The notes beneath the pieces were generated by a model. The model saw only the letters and a list, made by a program, of their open reading frames with translations. It did not search any database and had not been told where the DNA came from. A DNA stretch of 64,000 nucleotides from Luteibacter yeojuensis (GTDB lineage: Bacteria; Pseudomonadota; Gammaproteobacteria; Xanthomonadales; Rhodanobacteraceae), in NCBI RefSeq assembly GCF_000964085.1, contig NZ_JZRB01000023.1, positions 1 through 64,000 of the forward strand, read 5' to 3'. Each line of letters starts with the position of its first letter. The stretch's first letter is position 1. Shown in pieces: positions 28,882 through 36,845 of this stretch. The position numbers and the translations under genes are program-made.

Positions 28882-28910
28882 AAGGTCTCTCCCCCGGGGT
28901 TTGGCGACCG

Positions 28911-28939
28911 ATGGTAGCCCTATACTCAGGCAGACCCAA
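28911..28939. promoter_or_regulatory. Candidate divergent promoters between amidase and cytochrome genes
   Basis: On the minus strand TTGGGT (28939-28934) and TACCAT (28916-28911) are 17 bases apart, facing the amidase. On the plus strand TATACT (28921-28926) resembles a good -10 facing the cytochromes, but its nearest -35-like TTGGCG is only 14 bases upstream. Confidence 0.3.
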
Positions 28940-28963
28940 GGTCGGCCCCAGGGGAGCGAGGCG

Positions 28964-29665
28964 ATGCGACGTTCGTTCGGATGGTTCGTGCTGTTCGCGC
29001 TGGCGTGCGCGGTGCGCGCGCAGGATGCCGCCCCCGTGCCCGATACCCTGCAGCAGCGCATCGCCGCGTGCACCAGCTGCCACGGCCCGCACGGCGAGGG
29101 CGGCGAAAACGGCTTCAACCCCCGCCTGGCCGGCAAGCCGGCGGGTTACCTGGTGCGGCAGCTGCAGGCATTCCAGAAGGGCCTGCGCCACTACGAGGTG
29201 ATGGAGTACATGGTGGCGCCGCTCGACGACGTCTACCTGCATGAGATCGCCGATTACTTCGCGAGCCAGGACGTGTCCTATGCCATGCACCCGGTGCCGC
29301 CCATGCCGCCCACCGCCACCGCGCGCGGCGAGCAGTTGGTGACGAAGGGCGACCCGGCGAAGGGCGTGCCCGCCTGCATGGCCTGCCACGGCCCGAACCT
29401 CACCGGCGTGCAGCCCGATATCCCCGGCCTCGTCGGCTTGCCGTACGACTACATCAGCGCGCAGCTCGGCTCCTGGCGCACTAACACGCGCAGCACCACC
29501 GCGCCCGACTGCATGGCCACGGTGGTCAGCCGCCTCACCGACGCCGACATCAGCGCCGTCGCGGGGTGGCTCGCCGCGCGCCCCGTGCCTGACGGCGCCC
29601 ACCCCGAGCCCGCGGGCAGCGTGAAGCCGCCCCTGCGCTGCGGCGTGCTGGGAGACGGCACATGA
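28964..29665 (+). CDS. Diheme cytochrome c, c4-like
   Basis: Periplasmic electron carrier. The 233 residues begin with a signal peptide (to about residue 20, AVRAQ). Two cytochrome c domains follow, each with a heme motif: CTSCH (C36, C39, H40) and CMACH (C138, C141, H142). Likely axial methionines lie in the segments after each. AGGGGAGCGAGGCG precedes the ATG at 28964. The stop overlaps the start of the next cytochrome (ATGA), so the two are co-translated. No oxidase or dehydrogenase gene lies nearby, so the redox partner is unknown. Confidence 0.9.
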   Translation: MRRSFGWFVLFALACAVRAQDAAPVPDTLQQRIAACTSCHGPHGEGGENGFNPRLAGKPAGYLVRQLQAFQKGLRHYEVMEYMVAPLDDVYLHEIADYFASQDVSYAMHPVPPMPPTATARGEQLVTKGDPAKGVPACMACHGPNLTGVQPDIPGLVGLPYDYISAQLGSWRTNTRSTTAPDCMATVVSRLTDADISAVAGWLAARPVPDGAHPEPAGSVKPPLRCGVLGDGT

Positions 29666-30882
29666 GCCGCCTCCGCCTAGTTATCGCATTCTTGTTCTTG
29701 GCTCCCTGTGGGAGCGCGCTCGCGCGCGATCCCCTCACCGAAGGCCAATACCTCACCACCGCCGGCGACTGCGCCTCGTGCCACACCGCCCGCAACGGCA
29801 AACCCATGGCGGGTGGCCGCGTCGTGCCCACGCCCTTCGGCGCCATCCCGTCGCCCAACCTCACGCCCGACGCTGAAACCGGCCTGGGCACCTGGACCGC
29901 CGACGATTTCTACAAGGCATTGCACGAGGGCATCTCGCACGACGGCACGTCGCTGTACCCCGCATTCCCGTTCACGTCGTATACGAAGGTGACGCGCGCC
30001 GATAGCGACGCGATGTTCGCCTACCTGAAGTCGCTGCCCGCGGTGCGCAACCCGGCCACGCCGAACACATTGCGCTGGCCCTACCGCATGCGCTCGCTGA
30101 TGGCTTCGTGGCGCCTCATGTATTTCGACGAAGGCGAATACCAGCCCGACCCGAAGCAATCGAAAGCGTGGAACCGCGGCGCCTACCTCGTGCAGGGCCT
30201 GGGCCATTGCAACGAATGCCACGCGAACCGGAACAGTTTCGGCGCGATGGCCACCGAGCCGTTCCTCGCCGGCGGCCTCGTGCCCGTGCAGAACTGGTAT
30301 GCGCCCGACTTGTCGATGGGCCGCGACGGCGGCCTCGCGGGCTGGAGCGAGGCCGACGTGGTGGCGCTGCTGAAGACGGGCCGCTCGGCGAAGGGCACGG
30401 CGCTGGGCCCGATGGCCGAGGTGGTGGTGAAGAGCACGCAGCACCTCACCGACGACGATCTCGCCGCCATCGCGGTGTACCTCAAGTCGCTGCCGCCGCG
30501 CCCGCCGGTGACGCAGCGTGGCAACGCCGTCGATGCGGCCACTGTCGCGCAGGCCGGCCAGAAGGTGTACGCGCAACACTGCGCCGCGTGCCACGCCACC
30601 GACGGCCGCGGCAAGGGCGCGGCGTACCCCGCGCTGGATGCCAACGCATCGGTCACCGAGCCCACCGGCATCAACGCGATCCGCACGGTGTTGTCGGGTG
30701 GTTTCGCGCCGGCCACGGCGGGCAACCCGCGCCCGTACTCCATGCCGCCGTTCTCGCAGGTGCTCAGCGACGAGGATGCGGCAGCGGTGGTGACGTACAT
30801 CCGCCATGCGTGGTCGAACCGCGCGTCATCCGTGTCGCCCGCCGACGTGCGCGCCTACCGGTCGATCCCCGGCGCCAACTGA
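29662..30882 (+). CDS. Triheme cytochrome c, dehydrogenase electron-acceptor subunit type
   Basis: The 406 residues hold three c-type heme motifs: CASCH (C37-H41), CNECH (C183-H187) and CAACH (C307-H311). This matches the cytochrome subunits of membrane alcohol and gluconate dehydrogenases (ADH II/GADH cytochrome family), which pass electrons from a periplasmic dehydrogenase to ubiquinone. No dehydrogenase subunit is adjacent. The end of the signal peptide (LAPCGSALARD) is encoded by a half copy of palindrome family B at 29706-29734. Cleavage after SALA is likely; a lipobox reading of LAPC is unlikely because proline precedes the cysteine. The 3' end overlaps the convergent mug gene by 28 bases. 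Confidence 0.92.
   Translation: MSRLRLVIAFLFLAPCGSALARDPLTEGQYLTTAGDCASCHTARNGKPMAGGRVVPTPFGAIPSPNLTPDAETGLGTWTADDFYKALHEGISHDGTSLYPAFPFTSYTKVTRADSDAMFAYLKSLPAVRNPATPNTLRWPYRMRSLMASWRLMYFDEGEYQPDPKQSKAWNRGAYLVQGLGHCNECHANRNSFGAMATEPFLAGGLVPVQNWYAPDLSMGRDGGLAGWSEADVVALLKTGRSAKGTALGPMAEVVVKSTQHLTDDDLAAIAVYLKSLPPRPPVTQRGNAVDAATVAQAGQKVYAQHCAACHATDGRGKGAAYPALDANASVTEPTGINAIRTVLSGGFAPATAGNPRPYSMPPFSQVLSDEDAAAVVTYIRHAWSNRASSVSPADVRAYRSIPGAN
29706..29734 (+). repeat. Half copy of family B palindrome inside a signal-peptide coding region
   Basis: CTGTGGGAGCGCGCTCGCGC followed by GCGATCCCC matches the left arm of the full repeat at 43197-43264. It is in frame within the triheme cytochrome gene and encodes residues PCGSALARDP. 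Confidence 0.8.
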
Positions 30883-32659: not shown

Positions 32660-34507
32660 TTACATACCGCGGGAGGCCTTCTTGCGGTCGTTTTCCGTCA
32701 GGTGCTTCTTGCGCATGCGGATTTCCTTCGGCGTGACTTCGACCAGCTCGTCGTCGTCGATGAAGTCCAGCGCCTGCTCGAGCGTGAACTTCGTGGCCGG
32801 GGTGAGCTGGATCGCGTCATCCTTGCCCGAGGCGCGCATGTTGGTCAGCGGCTTGGGCTTGATCGCGTTCACGGTCAGGTCGTTGTCCTTCGCGTGGATA
32901 CCGATGAGCTGGCCTTCGTACACCGAATCGCCCTCGGCGGCGAACAGCTTGCCGCGCTCCTGCAGCGGGCCAAGCGAGTAGGCCGGGGTGGTGCCCGGGG
33001 CGTTCGCGATCATGACGCCGTTCTGGCGCTTGGCGATCGGGGCCGGGGTGTACGGGCCGTAGTGCTTGAACACGTGGAACAGCAGGCCCGAACCCTGGGT
33101 GAGGGTCTTGAACTGGTTCTGGAAGCCGATGAGGCCACGCGCCGGGATTTCATACTCCAGGCGCACGCGGCCCTGGCCGTCGGAGACCATGTTCTTCAGG
33201 TCGCCCTTGCGGATGCCGAGGCGCTCCATGACGCCGCCCTGGTGCACTTCCTCGATGTCGATGACGAGTTCTTCGATCGGCTCCATTTTCTGGCCGTCGA
33301 TGTCCTTGAGGATGACTTCCGGACGCGACACGGCCAGCTCGTAGCCTTCGCGGCGCATGTTTTCGATCAGCACCGAGAGGTGCAGTTCGCCGCGGCCCGA
33401 GACCAGGAACTTGTCGGCGTCGGAGCCGTCTTCCACGCGGAGGGCCACGTTGTGGACCTTTTCGCGGTCAAGGCGCTCGCGCAGCTGGCGGCTGGTGAGG
33501 AACTTGCCGCCGGAGAGATCCTTGTTGCCGACGAACGGCGAGTTGTTGACCTGGAAGGTCATGCTGATCATCGGCTCGTCGACGCTCAGCGCCGGCAGCG
33601 CCTCCGGGGTATCGAGCGCGGTGACGGTATCGGAGATGGTCAGCTCGGGGATGCCCGAGATGGCGACGATGTCGCCGGCTTCGGCCGAGTCCTGCTCGAT
33701 GCGCTCGAGGCCGAGGAAGCCGAGCACCTGGACCACCTTGCCCTGGCGCTTCTTGCCTTCGCGGTCGATGACGGCGACCGGCATGCCCTTCTTCAGGGTG
33801 CCGCGCTGGATGCGGCCGATGCCGATGACGCCGACGAAGTTGTTGTAGTCGAGCTGGCTGATGCGCATCTGGAACGCGCCTTCCGGGTCGACGTCGGGCT
33901 TGGGCGCGTGCTGCATGATCGCTTCATAAAGCGGGGTCATGTCGCCTTCGCGCGCGTTCTCGTCCAGCGAGGCGTAGCCGTTGAGGGCCGAGGCGTAGAC
34001 GATGGGGAATTCCATCTGCTCGTCGGTGGCGCCGAGCTTGGCGAACAGATCCCACACCTGCTCGACCACCCACTCCGGGCGGGCGCCCGGGCGGTCGACC
34101 TTGTTGACGACCACGATGGGCTTGAAGCCCATGGCGAACGCCTTCTGGGTGACGAAGCGGGTCTGCGGCATGGGGCCGTCCATCGCGTCGACGAGGATCA
34201 GCACGGTATCGACCATCGACAGCACGCGCTCGACTTCGCCGCCGAAGTCGGCATGCCCCGGGGTGTCGACGATGTTGATGCGGTTCTTGACGCCCTTCTT
34301 CTTGTCTTCCCAGGTGATGGCCGTGTTCTTGGCCAGGATCGTGATGCCACGCTCCTTTTCCTGGTCGTTCGAATCCATGACGCGCTCGGCGAGCACGGTA
34401 CGCTCGTTGAGCGTGCCCGACTGCTTAAGCAGCTGGTCGACGAGGGTGGTCTTGCCATGGTCGACGTGGGCGACGATGGCGATATTGCGCAGGAATTCGA
34501 TGGACAT
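32660..34507 (-). CDS. typA: Ribosome-binding GTPase TypA/BipA
   Basis: Translational GTPase of the EF-G type that helps 50S assembly and stress adaptation. The 615 residues show [15 protein letters not shown] (G1), [16 protein letters not shown] (G3) and [12 protein letters not shown] (G4), then domains II, III and V and the BipA-specific C-terminus (ending in a basic KKASRGM-type tail). Length is standard. A perfect TATAAT lies about 60 bases upstream on the minus strand and a terminator directly follows the stop, so this looks like a single-gene unit. Confidence 0.97.
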
Positions 34508-34637: not shown

Positions 34638-36845
34638 TCAGGGCTCCAGCGGCTCTTCGCGGCAGGCTTCGGGCACGTATTTCGGCTCGATTCCCTCGGC
34701 CGAACAGCGCCAGGTGACCTCCTTGCCTTCCACCACCGGGCTGAGCACCAGGATGCCGCCTTCCAGCTTGGCATTTGCCTTGTGCGGCGCCGTGGCGTCG
34801 AACTGGGCCGTGATTTCGCCGCCCGTGCCCACCTCGATGCTGCCGAGGTCGTCGTTGCCCAGGGCCTCGGGGGCATCGAGCCCGGCGGCCTTGTTGCTGG
34901 CCGGGAACTTGCCCGTGGCCAGGCGGCGCTCGGCCACGGCGGCCTTCACCGGCTCAAGCGCGTCGAGGCTGCGTTTGACCTCCGCGCGGATCATGTACTC
35001 CTGGTACTGGGGCACCGCCACGGCGGCCATGATGGCGAGCGCGGCGACGCCGGTGGCACCGCCTCCCTGGCCGACCAGCTCGATCGGCGACTGCTCGTAG
35101 GTGAGCGAGATGCCCAGCGTTTCCTTGTCCATCTCCAGCGCCGCGCCGACCACGCCCTTGTCCGGCAGGCCCAGGGTGTGGGCCGAGGGCAGGGTGGCGA
35201 TATCGGCCGTGGAGCCCGAGGCGGCGGCGAGTACTTGCAGCAGCTGCAGGTAGGTGTAATACGCGTCGCGCTGGGCGCCCTGGCTGGTGGCCGTGTAGCC
35301 CATGAAGGTGCGCTGCCCCGGGTAGCCGTGGGCCTTGAACCAGTCGTCCACGGCGAAGCTGGCGCCGGCGGCCGCGCGGTCCGAAAGGGCCTGCGGCACC
35401 TTGGCGAACACCGCCCACTCGCCGTCCTCCGTCCACCATGCCTTGCCACCGGCGCGGTCGATCAGCTGCATGAAGCCACGCATGGTCGCGTCGGCATCGG
35501 CGGGCAGGTCGTCGGCCGAGTGCCCCGGCACCGACAGCCAGTGCACCTCGGTGCCGTCCACCTTCGTCGTGCCCGTGGCCCAGCCGGCGTTCGTGTTCTT
35601 CGCGAGGAAATCGTGCCAGGCCTTCCAGTCACGCACATGGATGGCGTTGAACATGCCGGCGTCGTCGGCGAAGAGGATGGCCTCGGGGCCGAACCAGGCG
35701 GTGTAGCTGGCCGGGTTGAAGTGGAAGCGCTTCTCGAGCTTGTCGAGGCCTTCGCGCACCTTCTTCGCGCCGTCGGGCCCGAAGTCGAGGTTGAGGTTGT
35801 TTTCGAAGGCCTTCCAGCCGTCGGCCGAGGGCACGGCAAAGGTGACCGCCCAGTGCGGTTCGCCCACCGTCTTCAGCGTGGGCGCGAAGCCCGACGGGGC
35901 CAGGTACTGCAGGGCGCGTGCCTGCGGGGCGTGCACCAGGAACTGGAACTGGCCGCGGCCGTTGACCGTGCCCGCGCCGAAGGCGATGGCGTCGGCCTTC
36001 GAGGCGAAATCGCCCGGCAGCTTGCCGAACGGCTGGTCGCCCGCCTGCGCGGCGGCGACGGCACCCACGCCACGCATCGTCACCCAGCCGAAGAAGCCTT
36101 CGCCGGTGGTATCGATGCGCGCTTCGAGCACCGGCAGCAAGGCCGGCGCGGTGTTGGCGGTGGCCTTGTTGATGTCGGCCATGAGGCTGGCGAGTGTCGC
36201 CGGGTCGGCGGGCGACGGGCCCTTCGGCATCGGCACCCCCGCGCTGATCCACAGCCGGTGCTGGGCCAGGTCGTAGTGCACGGCACCCATGCCGCTGGCG
36301 AGCTTGCCGTTGCCCTGCGCATCGAGCGGTGCCTCGAGTAGTGGCGTCGCCGGCGAAAGGGCGGCAAGGCGCTGGTTGAAGGCGTCGACACTGGGGAAAT
36401 CCAGCACCGCGGTGATCACGCCGCGCGACGTGGGCGAGGGGATGCCCAGCGGATCGATCAGCGCCACTTCCAGCGTCGAGCGCAGGTCGCCCAGCAGCAG
36501 GGTCAACGCGGGGCCGGCCTTCAGGTCGGCGAGGAGCTTGTCCTTCGCGATGGCCTCGCGCACCTTGGCGATGGCGTCGAGGTTGGCCTTGGCCGACAGC
36601 GCCGCATCGAGCGGGCGGCCATTCGGTACGCCGTTGAGCATGCCCCACGGCGAGGGGATGCGGAGGTAGGCCACGGTCTGCGCGGGCAGGTGCTGGCGCA
36701 GCCATGCGGGCGCCGAGATCGCGGCCTGCGCGGCCGCCACCGCCTGCGGGTCGGCCTTCGGCGCGTCATCGTTCTTGTGGCAGGCCGCGAGGGCCAGCGC
36801 GGTGGAAATGGCTGCCGAAAGCAGCACGGTACGACGGGCAATCAT
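34638..36845 (-). CDS. Lipoprotein with a C-terminal type IV pilin-like domain
   Basis: I do not recognise a named family for the whole protein. The ATG at 36845 gives 735 residues beginning [12 protein letters not shown] with lipobox LAAC (Cys22), so the product should be a lipoprotein. Residues about 40-590 form a large extracytoplasmic domain starting [20 protein letters not shown], perhaps similar to DUF3352 proteins; that is a guess. Residues 599-735 resemble a type IVa pilin. They have [20 protein letters not shown] (second half of the pilin alpha-1 helix), then [19 protein letters not shown], a beta region, and the C-terminal loop [17 protein letters not shown] (Cys714 and Cys728), as in pilin disulfide loops. 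The prepilin leader, cleavage site and Glu5 are absent. No pil genes are nearby. It is transcribed toward typA. Confidence 0.8.

Follow-up and report, generated by a model that had tools for sequence, protein, structure and literature searches.

A conserved gammaproteobacterial protein family that joins a predicted TP0453-like domain to an apparently non-assembling type IVa pilin module

The gene in the window and its parts

The window, the whole 64,000-nucleotide stretch of Luteibacter yeojuensis DNA analysed here, contains on its minus strand an intact open reading frame of 735 aa that starts with an ATG at 36845 and ends with a stop codon at 34638-34640. A sequence-only reading of the window had described it as a single frame with a lipobox N-terminus (LAAC), about 550 residues of unrecognised sequence and a C-terminal segment with pilin hallmarks, and our analysis found the frame and the lipobox as described, the latter ending at Cys22. 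The features discussed below are as follows.

34638..36845, minus strand: whole gene, 735 aa, lipoprotein signal, predicted TP0453-like domain and pilin module (from the open reading frame, Pfam and the structural model)
36780..36845, minus strand: signal peptide with lipobox LAAC, residues 1-22, His at +2 (from sequence; strict pattern in 56 of 68 family members)
35076..36779, minus strand: N-terminal mature domain (N-domain), residues 23-590, no Pfam or NCBIfam family, predicted fold TP0453-like
35052..35075, minus strand: Gly-rich linker, residues 591-598, in place of pilin residues 1-8, with neither prepilin site nor Glu5
34980..35051, minus strand: conserved pilin helix segment, residues 599-622, equal to pilin positions 9-32
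34659..34988, minus strand: PF00114 pilin domain, residues 620-729 (Pfam and structure comparison)
34662..34706, minus strand: Cys714-Cys728 loop, the pilin D-region, disulphide predicted
32660..34507, minus strand: typA/bipA GTPase, downstream neighbour on the same strand (adjacent in seven named loci)

From its sequence, the protein is predicted to be exported, lipidated on Cys22 and retained in the envelope. In E. coli the residue at +2 of a lipoprotein bears on which membrane it reaches, and by analogy with this sorting rule the His at +2 suggests the inner leaflet of the outer membrane. Consensus searches for promoters and terminators found none.

The C-terminal tail matched PF00114 (Pilin) over residues 620-729 in a Pfam scan (E 5.6e-16, 59.8 bits against a cut-off of 22), and phmmer against PDB sequences aligned Neisseria pilins to residues 600-715 (best E 4.4e-9). 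The hallmarks claimed for it are present, namely a 16-letter pilin helix stretch with a motif of the IPxYQxY type, a KFPASN loop and the pair Cys714...Cys728. In the whole-protein AlphaFold2 model (alignment of 16 sequences, mean pLDDT 81.1, pTM 0.68, pLDDT <50 at residues 1-30 and 594-611), the pilin-derived helix begins near residue 597, in agreement with the proposed start at 599. Foldseek ranked Neisseria pilins first (2HI2, E 9.2e-8, TM 0.67 on target), and VIA-align matched the model to Neisseria PilE (5JW8, Z 15.2 over 109 residues at 1.8 Å; 2HI2, Z 15.0), showing that the tail is, as modelled, a real type IVa pilin fold; a fold unlike a pilin, set beforehand as the contrary outcome, did not occur. 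A viral structure library gave nothing at E≤0.001.

The signals for fibre assembly are gone, as had been proposed. Setting Pro612 as pilin Pro22 places Gly595 at pilin position 5, and the helix is preceded by ~590 residues with no class III signal peptide or prepilin site (G|FxxxE) before it. Passages of PMC10191384 state that Glu5 bridges to the free N-terminus of the next subunit and that prepilin processing is required before assembly. Judged from its sequence, the tail would be neither cut by prepilin peptidase nor polymerised via the known route, and the module is apparently non-assembling.

The rest of the protein remained unrecognised at the profile level: residues 23-590 gave nothing beyond chance against Pfam and NCBIfam. 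This domain may resemble DUF3352 (PF11832), perhaps through remote kinship; the DUF3352 profile matched neither the window protein nor 25 N-domains of the family, and nothing in 150 phylum genomes, the Luteibacter source genome included. Structurally, a single match emerged. Modelled alone (18 sequences), the N-domain forms one compact unit (pLDDT 85.4, pTM 0.83) for which only TP0453 stood out (VIA-align Z 10.3, 216 of 250 TP0453 residues, 5.3 Å), with four TP0453 entries (PDB 3K8G-3K8J) topping the list and the next fold at Z 5.8; Foldseek gave E 7.0e-4 to 5.3e-3. Both are lipoproteins (the family's by prediction), whereas TP0453 has ~250 residues against 568, the matched chains lack a pilin part, the match spans ~216 N-domain residues, under half, and sequence similarity is undetectable, a profile of 25 family members finding no TP0453 chain at E≤10. 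RseB, TiME and a StAR-related protein score about Z 4, a level that the tool itself labels as noise. Passages of PMC7521688 describe TP0453 of Treponema pallidum as a lipoprotein of the inner leaflet of the outer membrane, and passages of PMC9200625 report membrane-inserting amphipathic helices for it.

Distribution and conservation of the family

Copies in the genus, class and order rule out an artefact or a fusion confined to one genome, the other contrary outcome set beforehand. Intact full-length copies occur in 16 of 22 congeners (53-73% identity), the remaining six comprising one frameshifted copy, one copy at a contig edge and four genomes with none. Searched with a profile of the N-domain alone, 16 of 369 genomes in the class draw matched (14 near full length, two short and weak), as did 30 of 121 in the order draw (28 in one piece, two in three pieces) and two of 299 in the phylum draw, both of the latter within Luteibacter's own family, the Rhodanobacteraceae; the class and order draws overlap in the source genome and one other (G035). 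Named carriers among the matches listed are Luteibacter, Rhodanobacter, Dyella, Tahibacter, Kangiella, Wenzhouxiangella and Saccharospirillum. Pilin helix and head terminate all 14 near full-length class members, the pilin tail is present in 30/30 order members, and in none of the three draws was the N-domain found without the pilin helix. One Saccharospirillum protein (L047:7899-9674) retains the helix and ends right after it, the head being absent.

The fusion is kept at 22-28% identity among divergent members. Together with the intact copies in congeners, this leaves a chance open reading frame, an assembly error or a decaying gene with a negligible probability, even though one Luteibacter genome does hold a frameshifted copy. 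In that genome, Luteibacter sp. OK325, the gene is broken near residue 550 (L018 and L033, on the same contig), by sequencing error or decay. The protein family is thus real, conserved and unusual. As read from sequences and models, its members consist of a signal peptide (in most cases bearing a lipobox), one N-domain of ~565 residues and a type IVa pilin module that retains pilin positions from about 9 onward. Conservation of the fusion in scattered Gammaproteobacteria makes a role in the cell envelope probable, perhaps one alongside the type IV pilus.

We counted features in 68 distinct intact members, excluding the frameshifted L018 and L033, the contig-edge copy L020, the incomplete L027 and duplicates. 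Twelve lack the strict lipobox pattern and, of the 56 lipoboxes, 11 carry Asp at +2, meaning that members may differ in how they are anchored and where they end up; L119 and L122, for example, seem to carry an ordinary signal peptide. The mature N-domain is Cys-free in 62 members. The head has exactly two Cys in 66, four in L192 and none in L047, such that a head with Cys is retained more often (67/68) than the strict lipobox (56/68). Pilin positions 1-8 include at least two Gly or Ser in 64 of the 68. Position 5 is non-acidic in 65, the exceptions being Glu in L204 and Asp in L175 and L191, and a further 12 members are acidic at position 3, 4 or 6; complete loss of that charge is therefore no family rule. 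Members L196-L203 form a subgroup with Glu at pilin position 4 which, with the Glu5 of L204, looks as if a remnant of Glu5 had survived. Just before the Gly-rich linker stands a nearly invariant Glu589 (window 35079-35081) within SPxEL, a stretch that vaguely resembles the IEL of prepilins but lies too distant from Pro22.

These counts bear on whether the protein could be a true modular minor pilin that displays its N-domain in the tip or shaft of a pilus. The pilin fold is real, L204 has its Glu at position 5, and passages of PMC10191384 note that Glu5 can be missing from tip-cap subunits. We nevertheless hold this reading to be very improbable, with the class III signal absent, ~590 residues in the place of a free processed N-terminus, Gly and Ser recurrent at positions 1-8, and the pilin module N-terminal in the published modular pilins that passages of PMC8179133 describe.

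Conservation is uneven along the protein. Among ten divergent rows, mean pairwise identity was 0.517 in the helix segment (residues 599-622) versus 0.293 in residues 48-588, 0.195 in 623-644, 0.234 in 645-713 and 0.399 in 714-728, and of all 24-residue windows (n=682) only those starting at 43-53 or 600-601 ranked above the helix segment. When 31 family rows were set against 39 pilin rows, both after thinning, identity was lower in the family than in the sampled prepilins for the helix segment (0.633 vs 0.741), alpha1C (0.248 vs 0.382) and the head (0.240 vs 0.325), with the drop proportionally smallest in the helix segment.

Relation to pilins and to other pilin fusions

In head fold, helix motif, alpha1C and Cys-bounded D-region the module is like type IVa pilins (PF00114; Neisseria PilE). 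Unlike them, it is C-terminal and lacks the class III signal, the Luteibacter protein has lost Glu5 and had residues 1-8 replaced, and the family heads separate from 128 of 129 sampled prepilins. This separation comes from a quick tree of 193 heads, which placed 51 family heads, six other fusions and one pilin on one side and 128 pilins with seven fusions on the other (SH-aLRT 88). This arrangement does not favour the idea that hosts have repeatedly, and recently, captured their own pilins. In a 71-row tree with 33 family heads, long-branch rows excluded, the family did not form one clade (four changes, with starred branches forcing at least two); an AU test on this tree did not reject a single family clade (p 0.451), and the fusion may have had a single origin.

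Pilin heads without assembly signals also occur at the C-terminus of other proteins. We inspected 20 order regions chosen for their long open frames, a selected sample that gives no rate, and found 15 fusions (13 of other architectures and two family members) and three prepilins; L161 and L178 fell outside the prepilin-site pattern used but have GFTLIEL. The 13 others (L159, L160, L163, L165, L166, L168, L169, L171-L174, L176 and L177) have a C-terminal pilin head that follows a long hydrophobic helix and has neither prepilin site nor Glu5. GYF_2 matched at E≤0.001 in 9/9 of those scanned, eight over the cut-off, with RDD in three and below-cut-off DUF4234 matches in two. A wider class of non-fibre pilin heads thus appears, from these sequences, to exist within the order. 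The GYF_2-pilin, GYF_2-RDD-pilin and GYF_2-(DUF4234-like)-pilin proteins resemble the family in their heads but differ in that a presumably transmembrane helix precedes the head, GYF_2 occupies the other end and no N-domain match was seen in them. PF00114 matches should not be counted as pilins without a signal check.

The sequence-only reading knew of no described system of this form. Our literature search found no description of this lipoprotein-pilin family; within the order, however, C-terminal heads lacking assembly signals also occur in the GYF_2, RDD and DUF4234-like fusions. In passages of PMC8179133 and PMC10191384, pilins are described as N-terminal, processed, polymerising modules. 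Modular pilins such as Streptococcus sanguinis PilB likewise combine a pilin module with a bulky second domain; as described in passages of PMC8179133, however, they begin with the pilin module, which is processed and polymerised, and carry the extra domain behind it, whereas our family has the opposite order and lacks the assembly signals. What sets the family apart is a real pilin module that distant lineages retain, stripped of assembly signals, as the C-terminal part of a large exported protein.

Topology, genomic context and possible roles

A Cys pair in the head of an otherwise Cys-poor protein indicates an oxidising compartment, where the pilin tail is probably located, and from the sequence a Cys714-Cys728 disulphide is very likely. 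With the N-domain exported and the head very likely disulphide-bearing, both ends of the helix would lie outside the cytoplasm; unlike a pilin helix, it would therefore not span the inner membrane, and it is unlikely on this sequence evidence that so short a pilin-derived helix spans any membrane. A helix that can be neither processed nor polymerised and does not span the inner membrane should need shielding, whether by a partner, by a membrane surface or by the N-domain itself.

Shielding by the N-domain would make the protein a self-contained switch, in which the pilin-derived helix occupies a hydrophobic groove of the N-domain, plugging it or standing in for a substrate, until real pilin helices or lipids displace it. 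The need to shield a hydrophobic segment whose likely head disulphide argues against a membrane span, the Gly/Ser-containing stretch before the helix in most members, and the closed-to-open change that TP0453 reportedly undergoes at membranes (by the title of Luthra 2011) all fit such a switch. We consider it rather improbable, as the models show no confident docking: residues 594-611 have pLDDT <50, and pTM is 0.68 for the whole protein against 0.83 for the N-domain.

The sequence-only reading had suggested that the pilin-like head could cap, anchor or compete with pili, or serve as a decoy receptor. Genomic context did not tie the gene to the pilus, and no pilus assembly genes were found near it in the loci examined. 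The typA gene adjoins it in 7 of 18 named loci, all of them in Luteibacter, Rhodanobacter, Dyella or Tahibacter (7/7 of those), and in 0/11 of the others, an adjacency that is probably incidental. A Pfam scan of 16 flanking ORFs from eight of these 11 loci returned mixed families, three ORFs without a family and no pilus assembly gene; a PilZ/YcgR-type protein adjoins L040. Co-occurrence was similarly uninformative. The survey that had been suggested for the fusion bore out its conservation beyond the genus, but its second part, co-occurrence with pil genes, did not discriminate: PilQ exceeds the cut-off in 118 of 121 order genomes, including 30/30 with the family, and in 16/16 chosen genomes with and without it, so its presence says little. 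PilB was found in 13 of 14 family genomes of the class draw versus 252 of 369 overall (one-sided Fisher p 0.033), a difference to which we give no weight, as the cut-off was judged from listed E-values, usually for three candidates per genome, and kinship was ignored; one genome (G095) falls below the PilB cut-off yet has PilQ. An order relative (G038) has the family protein and PilQ with no PF00114 match at E≤0.001, which means that its major pilin has either diverged or belongs to a different type.

The function we tentatively infer, at a probability of about 0.38, is that of a pilin mimic that is tethered in the envelope and acts on the type IVa pilus. The TP0453-like domain would rest on the membrane and expose the helix segment and head, both pilin-like, to the periplasm. 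There they would bind pilin subunits, a passing pilus or a part of the pilus machine, and this binding would tune extension or retraction by braking, anchoring or terminating the pilus. The pilin fold, the universal fusion in the draws, the conservation of the helix, the Cys pattern and the non-acidic position 5 support a pilin mimic, and PilQ in all family genomes of the order is consistent with it without discriminating. Counted against it are the lack of a pilus neighbourhood, the saturation of PilQ, the headless L047 and G038 without PF00114, as well as the variation of the lipobox, the acidic residues at positions 3-6 and the low pLDDT at 594-611. The lower conservation of head and alpha1C than in prepilins also speaks against it, being unexpected if the head surface binds pilins.

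Nearly as likely is that the N-domain does the job, as a TP0453-like periplasmic lipoprotein handling membranes or lipids, with a borrowed pilin tail whose helix touches or dips into the membrane, a head that serves as spacer and no involvement of the pilus. TP0453 as the clear best structural match (Z 10.3 against 5.8 for the next fold), the rows for RseB, TiME and the StAR-related protein (within noise), a helix retained while the head drifts or, in L047, is lost, the pilin heads that end GYF_2/RDD membrane proteins, and the flanking ORFs devoid of pilus assembly genes all favour this account. It has to accommodate a TP0453 match of ~216 of 568 residues at 5.3 Å without sequence similarity, and a mere spacer does not explain why a head with Cys outlasts the strict lipobox. 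If the pilus is indeed uninvolved, a pilin helix and head have been turned into a general envelope module; if instead the pilus is its target, the pilin mimic would be a kind of envelope-side part unnamed in those portions of the pilin literature consulted.

A broader version of the pilin mimic would posit a whole class of envelope-tethered, non-polymerising pilins in Gammaproteobacteria, with TP0453-like lipoproteins capturing pilin helices or the pilus base as terminator, anchor or chaperone and the GYF_2/RDD-pilins doing likewise from the inner membrane; we regard this extension as unlikely.

Elsewhere in the window, two neighbouring ORFs at 28901-30882 on the plus strand contain several CxxCH motifs and probably encode c-type cytochromes.
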